Assembly (NCBI GenBank): GCA_903825395.1
Contig: CAIKAF010000023.1
Span: 124,001-188,000 of the forward strand
Reading direction: 5' to 3'
DNA: 64,000 nucleotides
Source of the DNA: an uncultured Flavobacteriales bacterium
GTDB taxonomy: Bacteria; Bacteroidota; Bacteroidia; CAIKAF01
Shown: positions 4,369-16,240 of the stretch, one piece after another
Position numbering within the stretch: position 1 is the first letter of the stretch
How the letters are laid out: each line of letters opens with the position of its first letter
The notes under the pieces: generated by a model
The model's database searches: none
Seen by the model: the letters and a program-made list of their open reading frames with translations, nothing else
What the model was told of the DNA's origin: nothing
Made by a program: the position numbers and the translations under genes

Positions 4369-5238
4369 ATGCAATGGCTGCACATGCTGCTGAGCCTGGT
4401 AAAATACCTCTGGCTCTCGAAAAAATTTAAACCCTTCAACCCGAAGGTAAAAACCGCCTCAACCTGGTGGATTTTGGGCAATGGACCTTCGCTAAAGCAG
4501 ATTATTTCCGAGTTCCCGGAAGAGCCCCTCAATCAAGTGTACTGCGCCGTCAACTATTTCTGCCTTTCGGCCGACTTTCAACGCATTAAGCCATCGGCCT
4601 ATGTGATTGGCGCACCTGAACTGACCTTTTTGCCGGAACAATCCATTCCCGACAACATCCTAGAAAGCAAACGCAACCTGTATGCCCAATTGGCAGAGCA
4701 AACTCAATGGCCAATGGTCTTGTTTGTGCCATATCCAACGCTGAAAGCACCTGCGTTCAAGTCCTTGCTTTCAGCAAATCCCATGCTGAGTGCCTGCGGC
4801 TACAATGCCACCCCACTGGAAGGCTCGGCCGGGTTTTGCCGTTTTGCCATCCTACATGGCTGGGGACTGCCCCGACCTCACAATGTGTTAATTCCTGCTA
4901 TAGCCATGGCCTTGCGCACCCGCATTCGGCAGGTGTATATGGTTGGCGCTGAACATTCTTGGCTGCAAACCCTACACGTGGACAACGAAAATCGGGTAAT
5001 GCTAGATCACCAGCATTTTTACGACGAGGGCAAACAAATCGCACACATGAACCACACCACATTCCGCCCCAGAAGGCTGCATGAGGTGCTGCAAAAATTT
5101 TTATACAGTTTTCAATCGTATTGGGTGCTGTCGGATTTGGCAGAGAAGCAACACGCGGAAATCTTAAATCTCACGCCAAACTCGTACATTGACGCCTTTA
5201 AAAAACAACCCTTTTCCCATGAGTATTTTCGAAGATAA
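4369..5238 (+). CDS. Probable GT42-like (sialyltransferase-type) glycosyltransferase
   Basis: A 289-residue protein of no certain family. It has ILGNGPSLKQI near the N-terminus, VYMVGAEHSW in the middle and LTPNSYIDAF near the C-terminus. In the same order, GT42 sialyltransferases such as Campylobacter CstII carry GNGPSLKEI, an IYLSGIDFY strand and CPNSLLANF, as I recall them. DUF115/Maf glycosyltransferases also use a GxGPSL motif. A His-rich stretch (HMNHTTFRP) sits where GT42 has its catalytic histidine. As the first gene of an operon making a CMP-nonulosonic acid, it is a good candidate for the transferase that uses that donor. The ATG at 4369 was preferred over the TTG at 4363 because of the adjacent promoter. 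It overlaps pseB by 20 bp. Confidence 0.55.
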   Translation: MQWLHMLLSLVKYLWLSKKFKPFNPKVKTASTWWILGNGPSLKQIISEFPEEPLNQVYCAVNYFCLSADFQRIKPSAYVIGAPELTFLPEQSIPDNILESKRNLYAQLAEQTQWPMVLFVPYPTLKAPAFKSLLSANPMLSACGYNATPLEGSAGFCRFAILHGWGLPRPHNVLIPAIAMALRTRIRQVYMVGAEHSWLQTLHVDNENRVMLDHQHFYDEGKQIAHMNHTTFRPRRLHEVLQKFLYSFQSYWVLSDLAEKQHAEILNLTPNSYIDAFKKQPFSHEYFRR

Positions 5239-6238
5239 AGCCATATTGGTGACCGGCGGCACAGGTTCCTTCGGCAAGCGCTTTATACATACCCTTTTGA
5301 ATCGGTACCCGGATGTGCGACGCATCGTGGTATTTAGCCGCGATGAATTGAAGCAATTCGAGATGCAGCAGGAGTTCAGCCCCGCTGAATTGAAAAAGAT
5401 GAGGTTCTTTTTAGGCGATGTGCGCGACAAAGAACGCCTTTCTCGTGCCTTTGAAGGCATAGACATGGTGGTGCATGCCGCTGCCCTAAAGCAAGTCCCC
5501 GCCGCCGAATACAACCCATCGGAATTCATAAAAACCAACATTATGGGCGCCGAGAATGTCATCGCGGCAGCCTTTGATGCCCAAATTACCCGCGTAGTGG
5601 CCTTGTCAACCGACAAAGCCGCTGCGCCCATTAATTTGTACGGAGCCACGAAATTGTGCTCGGACAAACTCTTTATTGCCGCCAACAACATTCGTGGCAA
5701 GCGCCCCATCCGATTTTCAGTGGTTCGGTATGGCAATGTCATGGGCTCTAGAGGCTCTGTTATTCCATTCTTCCTAAACATTCGGCAAAAAGGCAAAATG
5801 CCCGTAACCGATGCAACCATGACCCGCTTCAACATCTCGTTGGACGAAGGTGTGGACATGGTGCTCTTTGGCCTGGAACACCAATGGGGCGGAGAACTGT
5901 ACGTTCCAAAAATTCCATCCTACCGAATTTTAGATGTGGCCAAAGCCATCGCGCCTTCCATCGAACCCGAAATCATTGGCATCCGGCCGGGCGAAAAAAT
6001 CCACGAAGAAATGATTACCGAAGCAGATTCCTTCAGCACCTACGATATGGGGCCCTATTACGCGATTCTTCCGCAAGTGCCCAACTTCAATTTAGAGGAT
6101 TTTGTAGGTCATTTCAAGGCCAAAAAAGTAGAACAAGGCTTTCGCTACAGCAGCGGTAACAATACCGAATGGCTTAGTGTAGAAGACATTCGGGCGTTAA
6201 TTTGCCAGCACATCGACCCCGAATTTAAACCCCTGTGA
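5219..6238 (+). CDS. pseB: UDP-N-acetylglucosamine 4,6-dehydratase (inverting), PseB
   Basis: PseB makes UDP-2-acetamido-2,6-dideoxy-L-arabino-hexos-4-ulose from UDP-GlcNAc, the first step of pseudaminic acid synthesis. From the ATG at 5219 the protein has 339 residues. The Rossmann motif TGGTGSFG lies at residues 12-19. The active-site stretch STDKAAAPINLYGATK (around residues 125-141) has the D-K and Y-x3-K arrangement of the FlaA1/PseB subgroup of extended SDRs. RPGEKIHEEM near the C-terminus is also typical. The longer frame begins with TTG at 5189; the ATG is preferred. It overlaps pseC by 4 bp. Confidence 0.93.
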   Translation: MSIFEDKAILVTGGTGSFGKRFIHTLLNRYPDVRRIVVFSRDELKQFEMQQEFSPAELKKMRFFLGDVRDKERLSRAFEGIDMVVHAAALKQVPAAEYNPSEFIKTNIMGAENVIAAAFDAQITRVVALSTDKAAAPINLYGATKLCSDKLFIAANNIRGKRPIRFSVVRYGNVMGSRGSVIPFFLNIRQKGKMPVTDATMTRFNISLDEGVDMVLFGLEHQWGGELYVPKIPSYRILDVAKAIAPSIEPEIIGIRPGEKIHEEMITEADSFSTYDMGPYYAILPQVPNFNLEDFVGHFKAKKVEQGFRYSSGNNTEWLSVEDIRALICQHIDPEFKPL

Positions 6239-7449
6239 GCATGTTCCCCATTCCCTATGGCCGCCAAGACATTCGTCCGGAAGACCTGCAAGCCGTAGCT
6301 GAAGCGCTGCAATCCGACTTCCTGACCCAAGGGCCTAAAATTGCAGAATTTGAAACGGCATTTGCTGCCTACATCGGCGCACCCTATGCCGTGGCTGTAG
6401 CCAATGGCACCGCCGCTTTGCATTTGGCTGTCCTTGCCCTGGGCTTGCAGCCCGGCGATTTGGTCATCACTTCGCCCATTACCTTTGCAGCCAGCGGGAA
6501 CTGCGCTTTGTATGCAGGAGCCACCGTACTCTTTGCCGAAACCGACGAGGTTGGCACCATTCTACCCGAAGCCATCCAAGCCTTGTTTGAGCAACACGGA
6601 AGTAAAATTAAAGGCATCATTCCCGTCGATTTTGCAGGTCGTCCTGCCGATTTGCCCCGAATCCGTTCCATAGCAAATCAGTACGGCGCCTGGGTATTGG
6701 AAGATGCCTGCCATGCTCCCGGCGCAGAACGGCAAGGCCTCAACAAATTTCGCTGCGGCGATGGCAGCTTGGCCGATGCCGCTATTTTCTCATTCCACCC
6801 CGTAAAGCACATCGCCTGCGGCGAAGGTGGCATGATTACCACAGCCAACCCAGAGGTATATCAGCGCCTACTCACCTTGCGCACCCATGGAATAACCCGC
6901 GACCAAACCCGATTCAGCAATCCTCCTTCCCTAGCCGATGCCAGCCTGAACAATTCAGATGCCTACCCATTGTGGTACATGGAAATGCAAGAATTGGGCT
7001 ACAATTACAGGTTAACCGACATGCAAGCCGCCCTGGGTTTAAGTCAATTGAACCGTGCAGAATCTGGACTGCAGCGCCGCAAAGAAATTGCTCGGTTTTA
7101 CCACACTCAACTGCAAGGAATCGGCGACCTGCAGCTTCCCCATGCCGATTCGGAAGAAGAAACCGAAGCCCATGCATGGCACTTGTACGTAATCCGAACT
7201 CAACAACGAAAAGCCCTATACGATTACTTGCGCGAAAAACAGATTTTTGCACAGGTACATTATTTCCCCTTGCATTTAATGCCACACTACCGCACTGCCT
7301 TTGGCTATGGCCCGGGGTTGTTCCCTAAGGCAGAACAATTTTATCAGGAATGCCTCAGCATTCCCATGTACCCCTCGCTTAGCCAAGAACAGCTGATGCA
7401 TGTGGTACATTCCATTCGATCCTTTTTCCAGGAAAATCCAAGCGCATAA
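6235..7449 (+). CDS. pseC: UDP-4-amino-4,6-dideoxy-N-acetyl-beta-L-altrosamine transaminase, PseC
   Basis: A PLP-dependent DegT/DnrJ/EryC1-family aminotransferase that acts on the PseB product, using glutamate as amino donor. The protein is about 404 residues. The N-terminal substrate-binding NGTAALHLAV motif, the DACHAPGA motif around PLP, and the Schiff-base lysine at about residue 191 in FHPVKHIACGEGG are all present, followed by YNYRLTDMQAALG. Start is GTG at 6235, giving a 4-bp overlap with the pseB stop, or ATG at 6241. PseC is favoured over other sugar aminotransferases by the adjacent pseB and pseI. Confidence 0.92.
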   Translation: MSMFPIPYGRQDIRPEDLQAVAEALQSDFLTQGPKIAEFETAFAAYIGAPYAVAVANGTAALHLAVLALGLQPGDLVITSPITFAASGNCALYAGATVLFAETDEVGTILPEAIQALFEQHGSKIKGIIPVDFAGRPADLPRIRSIANQYGAWVLEDACHAPGAERQGLNKFRCGDGSLADAAIFSFHPVKHIACGEGGMITTANPEVYQRLLTLRTHGITRDQTRFSNPPSLADASLNNSDAYPLWYMEMQELGYNYRLTDMQAALGLSQLNRAESGLQRRKEIARFYHTQLQGIGDLQLPHADSEEETEAHAWHLYVIRTQQRKALYDYLREKQIFAQVHYFPLHLMPHYRTAFGYGPGLFPKAEQFYQECLSIPMYPSLSQEQLMHVVHSIRSFFQENPSA

Positions 7450-7455
7450 TTGGCT

Positions 7456-8202
7456 ATGACAACCATAGCGGCGCATACCGGAATTGTTGTTCAGGCTCGG
7501 ATGGGCTCCACCCGCCTGCCCGGAAAAGTTTCCATGCCCATTTTAGGTAAATCTCCCTTGGAATGGATAGACCATCGCTTACGCGCTCTAAACCTGCCCC
7601 TTGTACTTGCCACCTCCACCGGTTCACAAGACGACCGACTGGAAGAACTGGGAAATAAGCTGGGTTGGCCTGTTTTTCGAGGGAGTGAAACCGATGTGCT
7701 GTCTCGATTTGCCGGTGCCGCTTCCGCCCTTGGCTTGAAGCACGTTGTGCGCATCACCGCCGATTGCCCCTTGGTTTGCGCCGATATCATTCAACAGGGA
7801 TTGCAGCTCTATGCTACATTAGAACAAGGCCGAACCTATGTTTCAAACAGCCTAGAGCGTACCTATCCACGGGGCATGGACATGGAAATCTTCTCGACCG
7901 AATTGCTGCTTGAAGCCCAGGCCAAAGCCCAACACCCAGCTGAACGTGAACATGTTACACCTTACATGTACACCGGAAACACCCCGGCTACATACCAGGC
8001 CCAGGTGCGGCACAACCACAACTTCAGCCAAATCCGACTTACCTTAGATACGGCCGAAGACCTCTTGGTCATCACTCGGTCTATGCAAGAACTTCTACTT
8101 CATGAGTGCTTAAGCTATGAAGACATGTGGCCCAGATTTAAAGGGCATGAAGCCTTATTTGCTCTGAACCAGCATGTGGAACAAAAAAAGACCGGACTAT
8201 GA
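7456..8202 (+). CDS. SpsF-type cytidylyltransferase, probable CMP-pseudaminic acid synthetase
   Basis: About 248 residues of the SpsF/COG1861 cytidylyltransferase family. The nucleotide-binding signature VVQARMGSTRLPGK lies near the N-terminus, then ATSTGSQDD and RITADCPLV, the metal-binding region of the NeuA/KdsB-like fold. It most probably activates the pseudaminic acid made by the downstream pseI, filling the pseF role. Start is the ATG at 7456; a TTG lies at 7450 directly after the pseC stop. The last codon overlaps pseI by 4 bp. Family is firm; the exact sugar is inferred from the operon. Confidence 0.8.
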   Translation: MTTIAAHTGIVVQARMGSTRLPGKVSMPILGKSPLEWIDHRLRALNLPLVLATSTGSQDDRLEELGNKLGWPVFRGSETDVLSRFAGAASALGLKHVVRITADCPLVCADIIQQGLQLYATLEQGRTYVSNSLERTYPRGMDMEIFSTELLLEAQAKAQHPAEREHVTPYMYTGNTPATYQAQVRHNHNFSQIRLTLDTAEDLLVITRSMQELLLHECLSYEDMWPRFKGHEALFALNQHVEQKKTGL

Positions 8203-9239
8203 TTCGCATCGGACAACGCCCCATCGGACCTGAACACCCCGTTTATTTAATCGCTGAACTATCAGCCAACCACCGACAAGACATTTCCATTGCCCTTGAA
8301 ACCATACGGGCTATGGCAGATGCCGGAGCCGATGCGATTAAACTTCAAACCTATACCGCCGACACCCTCACCCTTCCTTACCGCACTGCTCCATTCCTCA
8401 TTTCCGGAGGAACAGCTTGGGATGGCGCTTACCTGCATGATCTTTACCGCGAAGCTGAAATGCCCTGGGACTGGCATGCCGAATTGATGGAAGAATGCAA
8501 AAAATTAGGCATGGATTGCTTCAGCACTCCCTTTGATCCCAGTGCCACCGACCTACTTCAGTCCCTGCACGTTCCAGCCTACAAAATAGCCTCATTTGAA
8601 ATCACCGACGTTCCACTCATTGAATACGTAGCATCCATGGGCAAACCCATGGTTATTTCTACGGGAATTGCAGGCATTCAAGATGTAGAATGGGCCGTTG
8701 AGGCCTGCCGCAGGCAAGGCAACGAAGACATCATCTTACTTAAATGCACCTCCGCCTACCCGGCTCCCGACAACAGCATGATGCTAAAACACATGCAAGA
8801 CCTTCAGGAGCGCTTTGGAGTTCCCGTAGGACTGTCCGATCATTCCGAAGGCGTTCTGGCTCCGGTGGTGGCCACCGCCATGGGTGCCGTTATGATTGAA
8901 AAGCATGTGATTTTAGACCGCAACATGGGCGGTCCAGATGCTCATTTCAGCTTGGAGCCCGCCGAGTTTGCCACCTTAGTAAAAGAAGTTCGGCGCACCG
9001 AAGCCATGATGGGAAAAGCACAGCCAAAATTTCCAGCTCAAGGAAAAAACAACCCCTTTGCCCGGTCCCTATTCATCACCCGCGATGTAAAAAAAGGGGA
9101 AGTACTAAGTGCCGAGAATGTACGCAGCGTACGGCCTGCCGATGGAATGCATCCCCGCTTTTTACCTGAGGTTTTAGGCCGCACATTTTCCATCGACCTG
9201 CCCGGAGGGACGCCTCTAAACCCAGATCACCTGAGCTAA
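8199..9239 (+). CDS. pseI: Pseudaminic acid synthase, PseI (NeuB family with SAF domain)
   Basis: A 346-residue NeuB-family enzyme that condenses a 6-deoxy-diacetamido hexose with phosphoenolpyruvate. A TIM barrel of about 280 residues contains AELSANHRQD, DAIKLQTYTADT, STPFDPSA and GLSDHSEG, the last a PseI-type signature. A C-terminal SAF (antifreeze-like) domain follows, with ARSLFITRDVKKGEVLSAEN. Full length for PseI. It overlaps the cytidylyltransferase by 4 bp and is 5 bp before the flippase. The TADTLTLPY segment and the pseB/pseC neighbours favour PseI over NeuB or LegI. Confidence 0.92.
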   Translation: MIRIGQRPIGPEHPVYLIAELSANHRQDISIALETIRAMADAGADAIKLQTYTADTLTLPYRTAPFLISGGTAWDGAYLHDLYREAEMPWDWHAELMEECKKLGMDCFSTPFDPSATDLLQSLHVPAYKIASFEITDVPLIEYVASMGKPMVISTGIAGIQDVEWAVEACRRQGNEDIILLKCTSAYPAPDNSMMLKHMQDLQERFGVPVGLSDHSEGVLAPVVATAMGAVMIEKHVILDRNMGGPDAHFSLEPAEFATLVKEVRRTEAMMGKAQPKFPAQGKNNPFARSLFITRDVKKGEVLSAENVRSVRPADGMHPRFLPEVLGRTFSIDLPGGTPLNPDHLS

Positions 9240-9244
9240 TCTGA

Positions 9245-10687
9245 ATGGGAATTCTAGTTCGGCAAGGCAGCAAAAACACCCTATACCTGTTCATTGGAGT
9301 TGGATTGGGTTTTGTCAGCAGCGCCCTGCTTCAGCCTCGCTTTTTAACCGCCGAACAAAACGGGATTATTAAACTGCTGGTGGCCTACTCTGCCATCTTG
9401 GCCCAATTGTTCACCTTAGGTTTCCCGGCAGCTTTATTGAAATTTAAAAGCGAGTTTAAAGACCGACAAATCAATGACCTGAAAACCACCCTGGTGTATA
9501 CCGGCTTGGGTTTATCGGCCTTTCTGCTGCTCTATTTCCTGCTCGGGAAAACCGCTTTCAGCTATATTTTAAATGCCCAAAGTGCATTTTGGCAGTACTT
9601 GCCCCTCTTGCCTTTGGCTACGGCAGCAACACTGATTTTTTTCAATTTAGATGCCTTCGCCAGAACAGAATTATACTCTACCCCCGGCACCCTAAGCAAA
9701 GAAGTTGGGCAGCGCATTTTCATCCTCTTGGCCCTGTTGAGCTTGGCGGGATTTGGACTGTCGTTCGACGCCTTTATAGCTGGGTACACCCTGGCCTTAG
9801 CCTTACCCATGCTGGCCTTAATTCTGTTTTTACATCAAAAAGGGAAATGGGTGTGGACTGGCTCAGGAGGCTTAAAGTCTCATCCGGATTTCAGAAAAAA
9901 CATTCATTCGGTATCGGCCTATGCCATTATATCAGGACTCTCGGCTTCATTCATAATCAGTTTGGATGCCATTTTTATTGAACGCATGCTGGGCACAGCA
10001 TCTACAGGCATTTATGCGGTATTTGGCTACTTCGCCACCTTGGTACTGATTCCGTACCGTGGAGTAGAGCGCATCGCTTCCCCGCTCATCTCCAGTGCAT
10101 TGGCTACCCAGCAAATGGATAAAATCAAAACGGTTTACCGCAGCAGCAGCAAATATTTGCTGTACGGTGGCGCTGTTCTTTTGGTGTTGCTGTTGAGCAA
10201 CCGGCACAATATTGCAGCCTTTTTACCGACCGAATACCGCATTGGCTTGCCCATTCTGTTTTGGTTGGGCTTAAGCAACCTGATTGACGCAGCCACCGGC
10301 ATCAACACCGCTATCATTGCAAACTCCAATTATTACCGGTTCAATATGGTATTGTTGGTGGGGCTCATTCTCTTGGCCTCTGCATTGAATATATGGTTTA
10401 TCCCCATTTGGGGGCTTCAAGGCGCGGCAGCCGCTACCTGCATCAGCGTCGCCATCTACAATCTCAGCAAACTTACATTCATTGGATTGAAGTTTAACAT
10501 GTGGCCCTGGAAAGCAGAAACGCTGTTGGTCGCGGCCATTCCGGGGGCATTATTTGTCCTTTCTGAATGCCTGCCGGCATGGTCAAATTTATACCTTGAC
10601 ACGGCCATTCGAAGCACACTGCTGCTTGGCCTGGCGGGCATGGCGCTGTTCATCCAGCCCTTGTTTCCCGGCGATTGGAAACTTTAA
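9245..10687 (+). CDS. Wzx-like polysaccharide flippase (MOP/MATE superfamily)
   Basis: A 480-residue integral membrane protein with about 12-14 hydrophobic segments. The N-terminal GSKNTLYLFIGVGLGFV and the overall pattern match lipopolysaccharide O-unit and teichuronic acid exporters. It probably flips an undecaprenyl-linked oligosaccharide bearing the operon's nonulosonic acid. It begins 5 bp after pseI and is the last gene of the operon, followed by palindromic element C. No polymerase (Wzy) or ligase is nearby. Wzx and other MOP exporters cannot be told apart by motifs. Confidence 0.83.
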   Translation: MGILVRQGSKNTLYLFIGVGLGFVSSALLQPRFLTAEQNGIIKLLVAYSAILAQLFTLGFPAALLKFKSEFKDRQINDLKTTLVYTGLGLSAFLLLYFLLGKTAFSYILNAQSAFWQYLPLLPLATAATLIFFNLDAFARTELYSTPGTLSKEVGQRIFILLALLSLAGFGLSFDAFIAGYTLALALPMLALILFLHQKGKWVWTGSGGLKSHPDFRKNIHSVSAYAIISGLSASFIISLDAIFIERMLGTASTGIYAVFGYFATLVLIPYRGVERIASPLISSALATQQMDKIKTVYRSSSKYLLYGGAVLLVLLLSNRHNIAAFLPTEYRIGLPILFWLGLSNLIDAATGINTAIIANSNYYRFNMVLLVGLILLASALNIWFIPIWGLQGAAAATCISVAIYNLSKLTFIGLKFNMWPWKAETLLVAAIPGALFVLSECLPAWSNLYLDTAIRSTLLLGLAGMALFIQPLFPGDWKL

Positions 10688-13102: not shown

Positions 13103-13621
13103 ATGAAGGAATACCCGGAAGAACTGTTAAACCGAGCACGTAAGGTGAAGATCGTTGTCACCGATTGCGATGGCGTCCTGACAGATACCGGTGTCTATTA
13201 CTCCGATCAAGGTGAACACATGAAGCGATTTAGCATACGCGATGGCATGGGTGTAGAACGCCTTAGAAACCTATGCGGCATCGATACGGCCATTATGACC
13301 GGAGAACGCTCTGGAAGTGTGGTGCGCCGTGCCGAAAAACTTAACATTCAACACCTGTTCCTAAACGCCAAAGACAAACGCAGCTTGTTGATTGATTTTT
13401 TACACCAACAAAACCTAAATCCTGAAAATCTAGCCTACATTGGCGACGACACCAATGATTTGGAAGCCCTTGAAATGGCGGGACTGGCGGCTAGCCCTTC
13501 CGATGCCATGTTCATGGCCAAACAAAAAGCCCACTACATCTGTTCTGAAAAGGGCGGTTATGGTGCCTTTCGAGATTTGGCCGAATTAATCATTTTTGCA
13601 CACCAATCGATTACTGAATAA
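13103..13621 (+). CDS. KdsC-type HAD phosphatase, possibly nonulosonate-9-phosphate phosphatase
   Basis: A 172-residue C0-type HAD phosphatase without a cap domain. The nucleophile motif VTDCDGVLTDTG is at about residues 18-29, IMTGERS provides motif II, and IGDDTNDLEAL supplies the metal aspartates. Family members include KdsC (Kdo-8-phosphate phosphatase) and the Bacteroides KDN-9-phosphate phosphatase. The gene is 6 bp before a NeuB-family synthase without a SAF domain, the same pairing as the Bacteroides thetaiotaomicron KDN genes, so a nonulosonate-9-phosphate substrate is likely. Kdo-8-phosphate cannot be excluded. Confidence 0.8.
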   Translation: MKEYPEELLNRARKVKIVVTDCDGVLTDTGVYYSDQGEHMKRFSIRDGMGVERLRNLCGIDTAIMTGERSGSVVRRAEKLNIQHLFLNAKDKRSLLIDFLHQQNLNPENLAYIGDDTNDLEALEMAGLAASPSDAMFMAKQKAHYICSEKGGYGAFRDLAELIIFAHQSITE

Positions 13622-13627
13622 AACACC

Positions 13628-14527
13628 ATGAGAAAAGTAACCCTGGCCGACGGCCGAATCATCGGAGATGGAGCTCCGGCCTATATCATAGCTGAAATCG
13701 GCATCAACCACAACGGAGAAGTAAGCATCGCAAAAAAACTAATCGATGCCGCTGTAGATGCCGGATGCGATGCCGTTAAATTCCAAAAAAGAACCCCTGA
13801 AATTTGCGTACCCCGCGATCAGTGGGATAAAGAACGCGACACCCCATGGGGCCGGATGACCTATATCGATTACAAAAAGCGCATTGAATTTGAATCGGCA
13901 GAATTTGCCCAAATCGATGCCTATTGCAAAGAAAAAGGCATTCATTGGTTCGCCTCTTGCTGGGATGAACCCAGCGTAGATTTCATGGAACAATTCAATC
14001 CGGTAATGTACAAAATGGCCTCGGCTTCCTTAACCGATTTGCCCCTGCTCAGCAAAGTACGCAGCACCGGCAGGCCATTGATGTTGAGCACCGGAATGAG
14101 CAACATGCATGAAATCGAAACGGCCGTCAAACACGTAGGAAATACCGATTTAATGGTGGCTCACTCCACTTCAGCATACCCTTGCCCTCCCGAAGAACTA
14201 AACTTGCGCATGATACATACCCTTATGGGCATGTATCCTACTGCCCCTATCGGATATAGCGGACATGAAACAGGATTGGCAACTACCGAGGCGGCTGTAG
14301 CCATTGGAGCCGCATTCGTTGAACGCCACTTTACCCTTGACCGCGCCATGTGGGGAACCGACCACGCAGCATCGGTTGAACCCGCAGGTATGGCTCGCTT
14401 AGTACGCAACATCCGCGATATCGAAGCCGCCATGGGCGATGGTGTTAAACGAATTTATGACTCAGAATTGGAGCCCCGCAAACGCCTGCGCCGCGTTACA
14501 TTAGAAGACCTTCAAAATAAAGGCTAA
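13628..14527 (+). CDS. NeuB-family nonulosonate(-9-phosphate) synthase without SAF domain
   Basis: A 299-residue TIM-barrel synthase with IAEIGINHNGE, DAVKFQKRTPE, FASCWDEPS and GYSGHETG, and a conserved VERHFTLDR strand. The C-terminal SAF domain found in NeuB and PseI is absent: the protein ends about 20 residues after the barrel. SAF-less enzymes include KDN-9-phosphate synthase of Bacteroides and related 9-phosphate synthases. With the adjacent HAD phosphatase it would make a free KDN- or Neu-like acid from mannose-6-phosphate or ManNAc-6-phosphate. No matching CMP-synthetase is in this operon. Confidence 0.82.
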   Translation: MRKVTLADGRIIGDGAPAYIIAEIGINHNGEVSIAKKLIDAAVDAGCDAVKFQKRTPEICVPRDQWDKERDTPWGRMTYIDYKKRIEFESAEFAQIDAYCKEKGIHWFASCWDEPSVDFMEQFNPVMYKMASASLTDLPLLSKVRSTGRPLMLSTGMSNMHEIETAVKHVGNTDLMVAHSTSAYPCPPEELNLRMIHTLMGMYPTAPIGYSGHETGLATTEAAVAIGAAFVERHFTLDRAMWGTDHAASVEPAGMARLVRNIRDIEAAMGDGVKRIYDSELEPRKRLRRVTLEDLQNKG

Positions 14528-14530
14528 TTC

Positions 14531-15514
14531 ATGGAAGAGTGGTTGTCCGGTTGGACTTGGAACGTAGAAAGCATCAGTGGACTCATTCTGCTGATGACGC
14601 CCTTCGTTTTTATCCTGTTGGAACGCTATTTCCCATATCAAAAAGGACTATCCATTTTCCGCAAGGGATTCTGGATTGACTTCTTGTGGTACACCTTGAT
14701 TCAGAGTTTTTTCCTTAAAATTCTAATTTTCGACTACATCATTGCCCCTTCAGAAGTGGCACTGGGTATCGATAAAACCGGATACATCAGCCATTGGCCC
14801 CTATGGGCCATTGTGCTGTTCTTTGTGATTACCCATGATTTCTACATTTACTGGTTCCATCGGTTTCAACACAGCAACCCTTGGTTTTGGAGAACCCACG
14901 AGGCACACCATTCCGTTGAAAATGTGGATTGGTTGGCTGGAAGCCGTTCCCACGTGGTAGAAATTATCATCAATCAAACCATTGAATTCCTGCCCATTTT
15001 CTTCCTGTTGGACGTTCAAACTGCCGCCATCGTAGTTCCCATTAAAGCTCTAATTGATGCCCTTTGGGGACAGTTCATTCATGCCAACATCGACGTAAAA
15101 TTAGGAAGACTGGGCTACCTGATTAATGGTCCGGAACTGCATCAATGGCACCACGCAGATCATGCCGAAGTCTATCATGCCAATTTCTCGACCAAACTGG
15201 CGCTCTGGGATTGGATGTTTGGAACCATTTATAAGCCCGGATTTAAGCCCAGACGATTTGGAGTATGGTATCGCTTTCCCCGAGGCTGGGCAGAACAACA
15301 TGTGTTTTCCATATTCCGCTTTAAGGTGAGCGACTGGGAAGACCAAGGCATTGGAAAACAAATCAACAACCTGCGCATAAATCTATTGAACCGAATGCGC
15401 CCCTGGCTCCCAAAATCATGGTTCGCGGATCGTTTGGACGGCCATGAAAAATATGGGCCTAAACCGGAATTGTACGACCGAATTCACCGTACCCGTTCCA
15501 ATTCAATGGCATGA
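14531..15514 (+). CDS. Fatty acid hydroxylase / sterol desaturase superfamily membrane protein
   Basis: A 327-residue membrane-bound di-iron oxygenase. After two or three hydrophobic segments come the histidine boxes HDFYIYWFHRFQH (about residue 102), HEAHH (about 123) and HQWHH (about 203), with IHANIDVKLG between them. These ligate the two irons in this superfamily, which hydroxylates or desaturates acyl chains and sterols. It starts 3 bp after the synthase and overlaps the first SMR gene by 4 bp. Its presence with a nonulosonate synthase suggests modification of a membrane lipid or lipid-linked glycan. The substrate is not known. Confidence 0.88.
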   Translation: MEEWLSGWTWNVESISGLILLMTPFVFILLERYFPYQKGLSIFRKGFWIDFLWYTLIQSFFLKILIFDYIIAPSEVALGIDKTGYISHWPLWAIVLFFVITHDFYIYWFHRFQHSNPWFWRTHEAHHSVENVDWLAGSRSHVVEIIINQTIEFLPIFFLLDVQTAAIVVPIKALIDALWGQFIHANIDVKLGRLGYLINGPELHQWHHADHAEVYHANFSTKLALWDWMFGTIYKPGFKPRRFGVWYRFPRGWAEQHVFSIFRFKVSDWEDQGIGKQINNLRINLLNRMRPWLPKSWFADRLDGHEKYGPKPELYDRIHRTRSNSMA

Positions 15515-15879
15515 CCATCTTGTGGCTTCTGCTGGCAGCCCTGTGTCAAACCATTTGGATTTGGTCCACCACCCGACTAAGCGGCTCGGCCATTAAGCAA
15601 TCCATACGCAGCAAAAATGCCGGCGCCATTTGGAACGCCATTCTGCCCCTATTGGTGTATCTAACCTCTGGAATTAGCAATGTAGTACTGTTGACGATGG
15701 TGATGGACGAGTGGCCGGCTTCGCTCACCTATGGGGTTTGGACTGGATTGGTAATGGGTCTGGCGGCCCTGCGCGAATGGCTGATGGAGAAAAAACCCAT
15801 TGGACTTAAACAGGCATTTTACCTGATTCTAATTGGAATTGGCACGGTAGGCCTTCAATATTTGCAGCATGACAACTAA
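15511..15879 (+). CDS. Small multidrug resistance-like membrane protein, subunit 1 (essential Glu replaced)
   Basis: A 122-residue protein with four hydrophobic helices, the SMR layout. LTYGVWTGL in helix 3 corresponds to the SMR AxWxG motif. In helix 1 the conserved substrate/proton glutamate (Glu14 of EmrE) falls at Gln13 in AALCQTIW. It overlaps the next gene, also SMR-like, by 11 bp, so a heterodimer is likely, with this subunit lacking a protonatable site. SMR relatives include drug exporters, guanidinium exporters and the ArnE/ArnF lipid-sugar flippase pair. Substrate unknown. Confidence 0.72.
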   Translation: MTILWLLLAALCQTIWIWSTTRLSGSAIKQSIRSKNAGAIWNAILPLLVYLTSGISNVVLLTMVMDEWPASLTYGVWTGLVMGLAALREWLMEKKPIGLKQAFYLILIGIGTVGLQYLQHDN

Positions 15880-16240
15880 ACAGCGGGCTTGGCTCTATTT
15901 ATTTCTTGCCGCCGGTATGGAAGCCTGTTGGTTTTATAGCATTCAATGGATGAAAAAACTGAGCTGGGCGGGCGGACTCTCATGGCCAACCGGGCCCATA
16001 GAAGGCTGGTTGGGTGTACTGGCTTATGCCGGGTTTGGCATTGCCAATGCCCTATTGTTCTTAAAAGCAGCCAAACACATCCGATCCAGCATCGCATTCA
16101 GCGTTTGGACCGGAACTGCCCTTGTCATTATGGTACTAACCGATCAATTGTTGGGACTGCAAGCCTTAGATCTGGCTCGAAGCGCCTTCCTGGCCTTGAT
16201 TTTAATCGGAGTTTGGGGATTGAAAACCGGGGAGGTTTAG
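15869..16240 (+). CDS. Small multidrug resistance-like membrane protein, subunit 2 (keeps the Glu)
   Basis: A 123-residue protein with four hydrophobic helices. Helix 1 contains AAGMEACWFYSIQW, keeping the essential glutamate (about Glu18) and the following tryptophan seen in the SugE/Gdx branch. FSVWTGTALV in helix 3 is the SMR signature. It starts 11 bp inside the preceding SMR-like gene, implying coupled translation and pairing. It is the last gene of the phosphatase-synthase-hydroxylase operon and ends 14 bp from a convergent gene. Confidence 0.78.
   Translation: MTTKQRAWLYLFLAAGMEACWFYSIQWMKKLSWAGGLSWPTGPIEGWLGVLAYAGFGIANALLFLKAAKHIRSSIAFSVWTGTALVIMVLTDQLLGLQALDLARSAFLALILIGVWGLKTGEV

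Follow-up and report, generated by a model that had tools for sequence, protein, structure and literature searches.

A conserved SMR gene pair of Flavobacteriales with the central glutamate in one subunit and glutamine in the other

The window, a 64,000-nucleotide stretch of DNA from an uncultured Flavobacteriales bacterium (contig CAIKAF010000023.1), carries on its forward strand an operon that closes with two adjacent SMR genes. Subunit A is encoded at 15511..15879 (ATG start, TAA stop, 122 aa) and subunit B at 15869..16240 (ATG start, TAG stop, 123 aa). The two reading frames share 11 bp, as had been predicted originally, the overlap being ATGACAACTAA at 15869..15879 of the same strand. Directly upstream lies a gene for a 327-aa FA_hydroxylase (PF04116) protein (14531..15514, +), whose TGA stop overlaps the start codon of A (ATGA). 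It is preceded by genes for a short NeuB-family protein of 299 aa (13628..14527, +) and a 172-aa HAD phosphatase of the KdsC/KDN-9-phosphatase type (13103..13621, +). The best curated match of the phosphatase was of the KDN-9-phosphate type, at 140.4 of 180 bits and thus under the cut-off, and that of the hydroxylase was OlsE, at 97 of 475 bits and far under the cut-off.

Several tests of weak to moderate strength identify A and B as SMR proteins, the pair having both the four-helix fold and profile matches. Searched as proteins alone against the Pfam family PF00893 (cut-off 23.7), B scored 25.5 bits and A 21.9 bits; a whole-genome scan listed A alone, at 23.5 bits, a score that counted as passing once the neighbours in its frame were included (24.1), and left B unlisted. 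Profiles of A and B, each built from eight rows, matched SMR chains in the PDB with best E values of 2.4e-9 (A) and 5.6e-11 (B). In PHROGs there was no match for A and a weak QacE match for B. AlphaFold monomer models built from the same eight-row alignments (mean pLDDT 82.6 for A and 81.7 for B) contained the four SMR helices in both proteins; the remaining four models of A were of lower confidence, down to 60.3. The top structural match of both was Gdx-Clo, for A at Z 13.3 (2.6 A over 103 residues) and for B at Z 15.8 (1.7 A over 104 residues), followed by EmrE at 12.7 (A, a tie with Gdx-Clo) and 13.2 (B), although unrelated helical bundles may score Z 13, so that the fold match of A is insufficient on its own.

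Relatives of the pair were collected from the window's order, where 12 of 16 genomes carry an adjacent pair, two (G007 and G011) a single copy and two none at E 1e-15. One pair (G003), whose A is identical to that of the window, was dropped, which left 11 distinct pairs; together with 20 single copies they form a family set of 42 rows (11 A, 11 B and 20 single copies). A script chose the start codons of the relatives, not all of them with certainty. When these rows were aligned with EmrE, E. coli Gdx, MdtI, MdtJ, ArnE and ArnF, Gln13 of A and Glu18 of B fell in the column of EmrE E14 and Gdx E13. This agrees with the original prediction, which had placed these residues at EmrE Glu14 and proposed an alignment with EmrE, Gdx and ArnE/F as the check. 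Furthermore, the split is kept throughout, with Gln in the A protein and Glu in the B protein of all 11 distinct pairs. In HMMER alignments to Gdx-Clo, the Glu of the B profile paired with E13 inside the main match, and the Gln of the A profile paired with it in a separate, weak fragment of the match (2.2 bits). Structural alignments, of which the range ends are available, gave the same starting register, residue 1 of A and residue 6 of B lying on residue 1 of Gdx-Clo. An ordinary two-Glu PSMR was ruled out by the invariance of Gln in A, and a sequencing or annotation accident by the agreement across 11 distinct species. The pair departs both from Gdx/Qac/polyamine SMR proteins, which have a central glutamate in both subunits, and from lipid SMR proteins of the ArnE/ArnF type, in which it is replaced, since here it is replaced in A only and retained in B. 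This contrast with ordinary SMR pairs is drawn against E. coli MdtI/MdtJ and ArnE/ArnF and the papers cited here.

A second, reciprocal split is found at the position of EmrE Y60, the "tyrosine switch", which is Tyr in 11/11 A proteins (Tyr74 in the window) and Phe in 11/11 B proteins (Phe77). Gdx/Qac/polyamine SMR proteins have this tyrosine in both subunits. This SMR group can do without Tyr, since 17 of the 20 single copies also have Phe at the position. Other site residues are uniform: Trp at the Gdx W16 and EmrE W63 positions, the latter being the binding-site Trp typical of Gdx/Qac/polyamine proteins, and Asn at the EmrE S43 position are present in all 42 family rows. In lower TM3, an acid that EmrE and E. 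coli Gdx lack occupies the EmrE S75 position, likewise in all 42 and also in four further rows from outside the class (f83, described below); it is E89 in A (15775-15777) and D92 in B (16142-16144).

That lower-TM3 acid, present in every family row, could suggest that another acid substitutes for the glutamate in A and that the dimer keeps two sites, the very situation named originally as the one that would overturn the prediction. The acidic residues of A are D66, E67, E89, E93 and D121, and with the helix boundaries set by the authors all of them lie outside TM1, TM2, the TM3 core and TM4. A replacement acid at the site of the window's A protein was thereby ruled out, and the same regions are free of acids in the A proteins of 10 of 11 species, the exception (G008A) having one near the start of TM3. 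The Ser75-position acid lies 12 residues beyond the binding-site Trp and, because B and the single copies have it besides their own Glu or Gln, it is no stand-in for the glutamate of A. A two-site dimer of this kind is therefore extremely unlikely.

The wider distribution bears on how the pair arose. In a survey of the class, at least 31 of 395 genomes held a copy scoring 80 bits or more, the next score being 55.7 (with at most 11 candidates scored per genome), and among those 31 genomes adjacent copies were confined to the window's family. The single copies read in related bacteria have Glu in 18 of 20 cases and Gln in two (G354 and G388, both of family f68). By synteny, the Gln gene of G388 corresponds to a gene with Glu in G296, of the same genus (loci L082 and L084 compared), which indicates that Glu is dispensable; no second copy of this SMR group was found in G388, where all 52 candidates were scored. 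G354 has one Glu and one Gln copy at unlinked loci. A survey of 395 genomes of the phylum added the four f83 hits outside the class, which score between the group and ordinary SMR proteins (62.8-78.1 bits) and stand outside the 42-row counts. All four are open frames of 112-119 aa with both Glu and Tyr and lie near a NeuB gene, and three lie near a hydroxylase gene. Both Glu and Tyr were presumably ancestral in this SMR group, and because 18/20 single copies have Glu, the Gln of the pair probably reflects a loss of Glu in one copy.

In each of two trees a single branch set the A proteins apart from all other rows, and another the B proteins (supports 100/99 and 99/95 for the first tree, 100/99 and 99/98 for the second). 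Both trees were built without ArnE and ArnF; the first carried a long-branch warning for EmrE, MdtI and MdtJ, and from the second these three were left out as well. For one single copy with an uncertain start (G370) the last 124 residues were used. As sister groups A and B appeared in neither tree, so it is not claimed that they are each other's closest kin. At least three changes at the Glu14 position are needed on these trees. Both proteins are under constraint. Values of dN/dS were 0.05-0.30 for A (four of seven comparisons) and 0.04-0.085 for B (five of seven), the rest being saturated and dS in the usable comparisons reaching about 3, near saturation. Because dN/dS of A was below 1 in all usable comparisons, there is no visible decay of this subunit, and of 117 fully filled columns 18 are invariant in A and 19 in B.

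These figures bear on the view that A is a decaying duplicate whose loss of Glu is mechanistically meaningless. A precedent exists in the adjacent SMR pair YvaD/YvaE of Bacillus, in which YvaD has lost E14 and, as described in the part of the source available here, is poorly conserved and under little selection (PMC2716321); A also evolves faster than B in some comparisons (dN 0.127 versus 0.032 between G002 and G004). The two pairs are alike in being adjacent and in having one member without E14. However, compared with YvaD as described in that partial text, A is conserved: Gln, Tyr, both Trp residues (Gdx W16 and EmrE W63), Asn (S43) and the acid (S75) are kept in the A proteins of 11/11 species, its invariant columns are nearly as many as those of B, and dN/dS is below 1 in 4/4 usable comparisons. 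Decay is thus very unlikely.

Whether A and B act together was approached through gene order and charge bias. Adjacent genes with opposite Arg/Lys bias are the mark of a PSMR and are found here, A directly preceding B in all 11 distinct pairs. With loop boundaries set by the authors, the K/R bias of A ranged from -10 to -3 and was negative in 11/11 proteins, and that of B from 0 to +4, with ten positive values among the 11 proteins and a single zero, that of G002, where the start codon is in doubt. The same script gave -5/+5 for MdtI/MdtJ, -6/+3 for ArnE/ArnF and -1 each for EmrE and E. coli Gdx. The subunits are therefore predicted to have opposite topologies, A N-out and B N-in, and to form an A/B heterodimer. 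The mean bias of 19 counted single copies (G370 excluded) was -2.4, with 8/19 below -2; because this is not neutral, dual topology of the single copies is not clear. One might instead suppose that A and B are unpaired, each forming homodimers or associating with another SMR protein, given that the complex is a prediction from gene sequences and that G388, for its Gln copy, offers no same-group partner with Glu among the 52 candidates scored. This is distinctly improbable, as the opposite charge biases point to single, opposite topologies that are incompatible with antiparallel homodimers, and the invariable A-B gene order argues against it as well.

The operon context is also conserved. At all 11 distinct pair loci the SMR pair has NeuB and phosphatase genes upstream, and at nine of them the hydroxylase gene also precedes it. 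The 20 single copies lie near NeuB in 13 cases, near the hydroxylase in 12 and near the phosphatase in eight; for 11 of them the cluster extends to a class-III aminotransferase, an SDR and the two halves of a transketolase, a cytidylyltransferase gene is beside seven, and all nine genes occur together in five. The context is absent from 7/20, although the stretches of several relatives end close to the cluster, so that an outer gene scored as absent was perhaps just cut off. In the window's own genome the cytidylyltransferase and transketolase genes are on another contig. Since that genome also carries another NeuB gene and a further, weaker KdsC match, neither Kdo nor pseudaminic acid has to be the purpose of the operon. 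A glycosyltransferase gene was not found in the operon. The amino group of the product is suggested by the aminotransferase only, and this gene lay away from the pair locus in all five genomes searched, out of the 12 that carry the pair. Judged from the operon alone, a sugar or lipid cargo is plausible.

Just upstream in the window, positions 5189-10687 gave cytidylyltransferase and NeuB matches in family searches. From the appearance of its reading frames, this region presumably holds a gene set of the pseudaminic-acid type, with PseB-, PseC- and PseI-like genes followed by a Wzx-like flippase gene.

Because amino-sugar-type enzymes are encoded beside many of the relatives, and a lipid-hydroxylase-like protein with them, a serious rival is that the pair is an uncoupled lipid flippase like ArnE/ArnF, the flippase of undecaprenyl-phosphate-Ara4N: a lipid-linked amino sugar would pass to the outer leaflet, and the Glu of B would merely bind the amino group. 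This is possible, if doubtful. Like ArnE/ArnF, the A/B pair has opposite biases and ends an amino-sugar operon, as the SMR genes do in arn; E. coli ArnF aligns with Gln at the Glu14 site; and a glycosyltransferase gene precedes the single copy at L079. Moreover, lipid SMR proteins often have Asn at the Glu site and are perhaps not proton-coupled, according to the portion of a review consulted here (PMC9574504). On the other hand, Glu is kept in 11/11 B proteins and 18/20 single copies, and the binding-site Trp is present in 42/42 family rows, whereas in the alignment E. coli ArnE and ArnF both have Leu there; ArnE has Ser at the glutamate site, so that no Glu is left in that pair. With Glu retained in B and the binding-site Trp in both subunits, equating the pair with ArnE/ArnF is disfavoured.

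Tentatively favoured, with a little less than an even chance of being correct, is an antiparallel A/B heterodimer with one proton site that exports the amino-sugar or lipid product of the operon. Substrate and protons bind in Gdx to the two central glutamates, which set the exchange of two protons per guanidinium and contact the switch tyrosine across the dimer interface (PMC9574504, in part). In the A/B pair, two formerly symmetric sites would have been split between two specialised subunits. B, N-in, would carry the sole protonatable glutamate, Glu18, and Gln13 of A, N-out, would act as a permanent mimic of a protonated Glu. The switch tyrosine of A, Tyr74, could reach Glu18 of B across the interface, and the mirror contact, with Gln in A and Phe in B, would be lost. 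Each cycle would then handle a single proton, or a single cationic group on the cargo, rather than two. The cargo might be an aminated nonulosonate-type sugar, or a lipid bearing it, taken from the cytoplasmic to the periplasmic side.

Mixed EmrE/E14Q dimers offer an analogy for the resting state. In these, Gln is reported to favour monomer B and Glu monomer A (PMC11133458 and PMC12464994, available in part), and a subunit that prefers monomer A, when combined with an N-out partner, is reported to favour the inward-open state (PMC6805155, likewise in part). As the single Glu belongs to the subunit predicted to be N-in and the single switch Tyr to its N-out partner, the A/B dimer is predicted to be biased inward and to have one proton site, and by this analogy its resting state would face the cytoplasm. 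Drug resistance by EmrE was reported to require both glutamates (PMC6805155, citing earlier work, in the part seen), so that coupling might be lost altogether in a dimer with one Glu, which argues against the favoured model. Further points against it are the Gln of two single copies and the Phe at the switch position in 17 of 20, the seven single copies outside the operon context, the lack of a glycosyltransferase gene in the operon, the non-neutral charge of the single copies, and the trees, in which A and B are not sisters. That a single proton site would break the symmetry of the dimer was part of the original prediction; the one-Glu pair and the lack of a substitute acid in A stand behind it, the reciprocal Tyr/Phe split adds a further asymmetry, and the dimer itself is a prediction. 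The different mode of transport, as in lipid-flipping SMR pairs, that was also proposed originally stays a conjecture.

Known systems resemble the pair in part. The engineered EmrE/EmrE-E14Q dimer (PDB 8UOZ), which was among the structural matches (Z 11.6 for the A model and 10.6 for the B model), also pairs Glu with Gln at position 14 (PMC11133458 and PMC12464994, as far as these texts were available). However, it is a laboratory mixture of a dual-topology protein, whereas the A/B split is natural, is predicted to have fixed topology and is accompanied by the Tyr/Phe split. The Gdx guanidinium exporters share Trp16 and Trp62 and provide the best structural match, but A and B differ from them in having Asn for Ser42, a loop 1 about 15 residues longer, no intact GXG motif and one Glu per pair. 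The spermidine exporter MdtI/MdtJ is likewise a paired SMR with opposite bias. Glu and Tyr are present in both MdtI and MdtJ, unlike in A and B; only Glu14 of MdtI is described as essential, a functional asymmetry (Bay and Turner, PMC2716321, text seen in part), whereas a review describes the complex's central glutamates as critical (PMC9574504, in the portion consulted). Thus, a pair member that has lost E14 (YvaD), functional asymmetry in MdtI/MdtJ and an engineered E/Q dimer are already in print, according to the partial texts of these sources. Among the open-access literature matches listed, there was no conserved Gln/Glu SMR pair that combines a reciprocal Tyr/Phe split with a conserved sugar/lipid-type operon, and no title or opening of an abstract concerned this group, including the best 12 of 63 and best 12 of 51 matches listed for the operon's gene combination.

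A different reading, possible but held with considerable doubt, is that the pair represents a further Bacteroidota SMR subtype that serves an aminated nonulosonate or lipid pathway. A symmetric two-Glu dimer would have turned into a one-proton, inward-biased heterodimer with Glu and switch Tyr divided between its subunits, a natural intermediate towards asymmetric inverted-repeat transporters. SMR transporters are a model for the passage from a symmetric homodimer to an asymmetric transporter, and the role of each glutamate is a long-standing question. A one-Glu pair kept in most sampled members of an order is a natural counterpart of the laboratory-built EmrE/E14Q mutant; single-gene Glu relatives give its likely before-state, and it is marked by the reciprocal Tyr/Phe split. 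A natural protein thereby becomes available for tests of stoichiometry, of conformational bias and of the Glu-Tyr switch, and an orphan SMR group is linked to an uncharacterised sugar or lipid operon.

Relatives of this operon with a single SMR gene are themselves of interest. Eight Bacteroidota loci (L087, L089, L091, L093, L094, L095, L098 and L099) contain a cluster of two transketolase halves, a class-III aminotransferase, an SDR, a KdsC-type phosphatase, a short NeuB and one SMR gene, with the hydroxylase in all but L089 and the cytidylyltransferase in six. At L079:5902-7445 a single SMR gene of the Glu type stands directly after a glycosyltransferase gene (Glyco_trans_1_3). Finally, a second, distant FA_hydroxylase-like gene lies upstream of an M13 peptidase gene at L067:230-1183 and L070:2-925.
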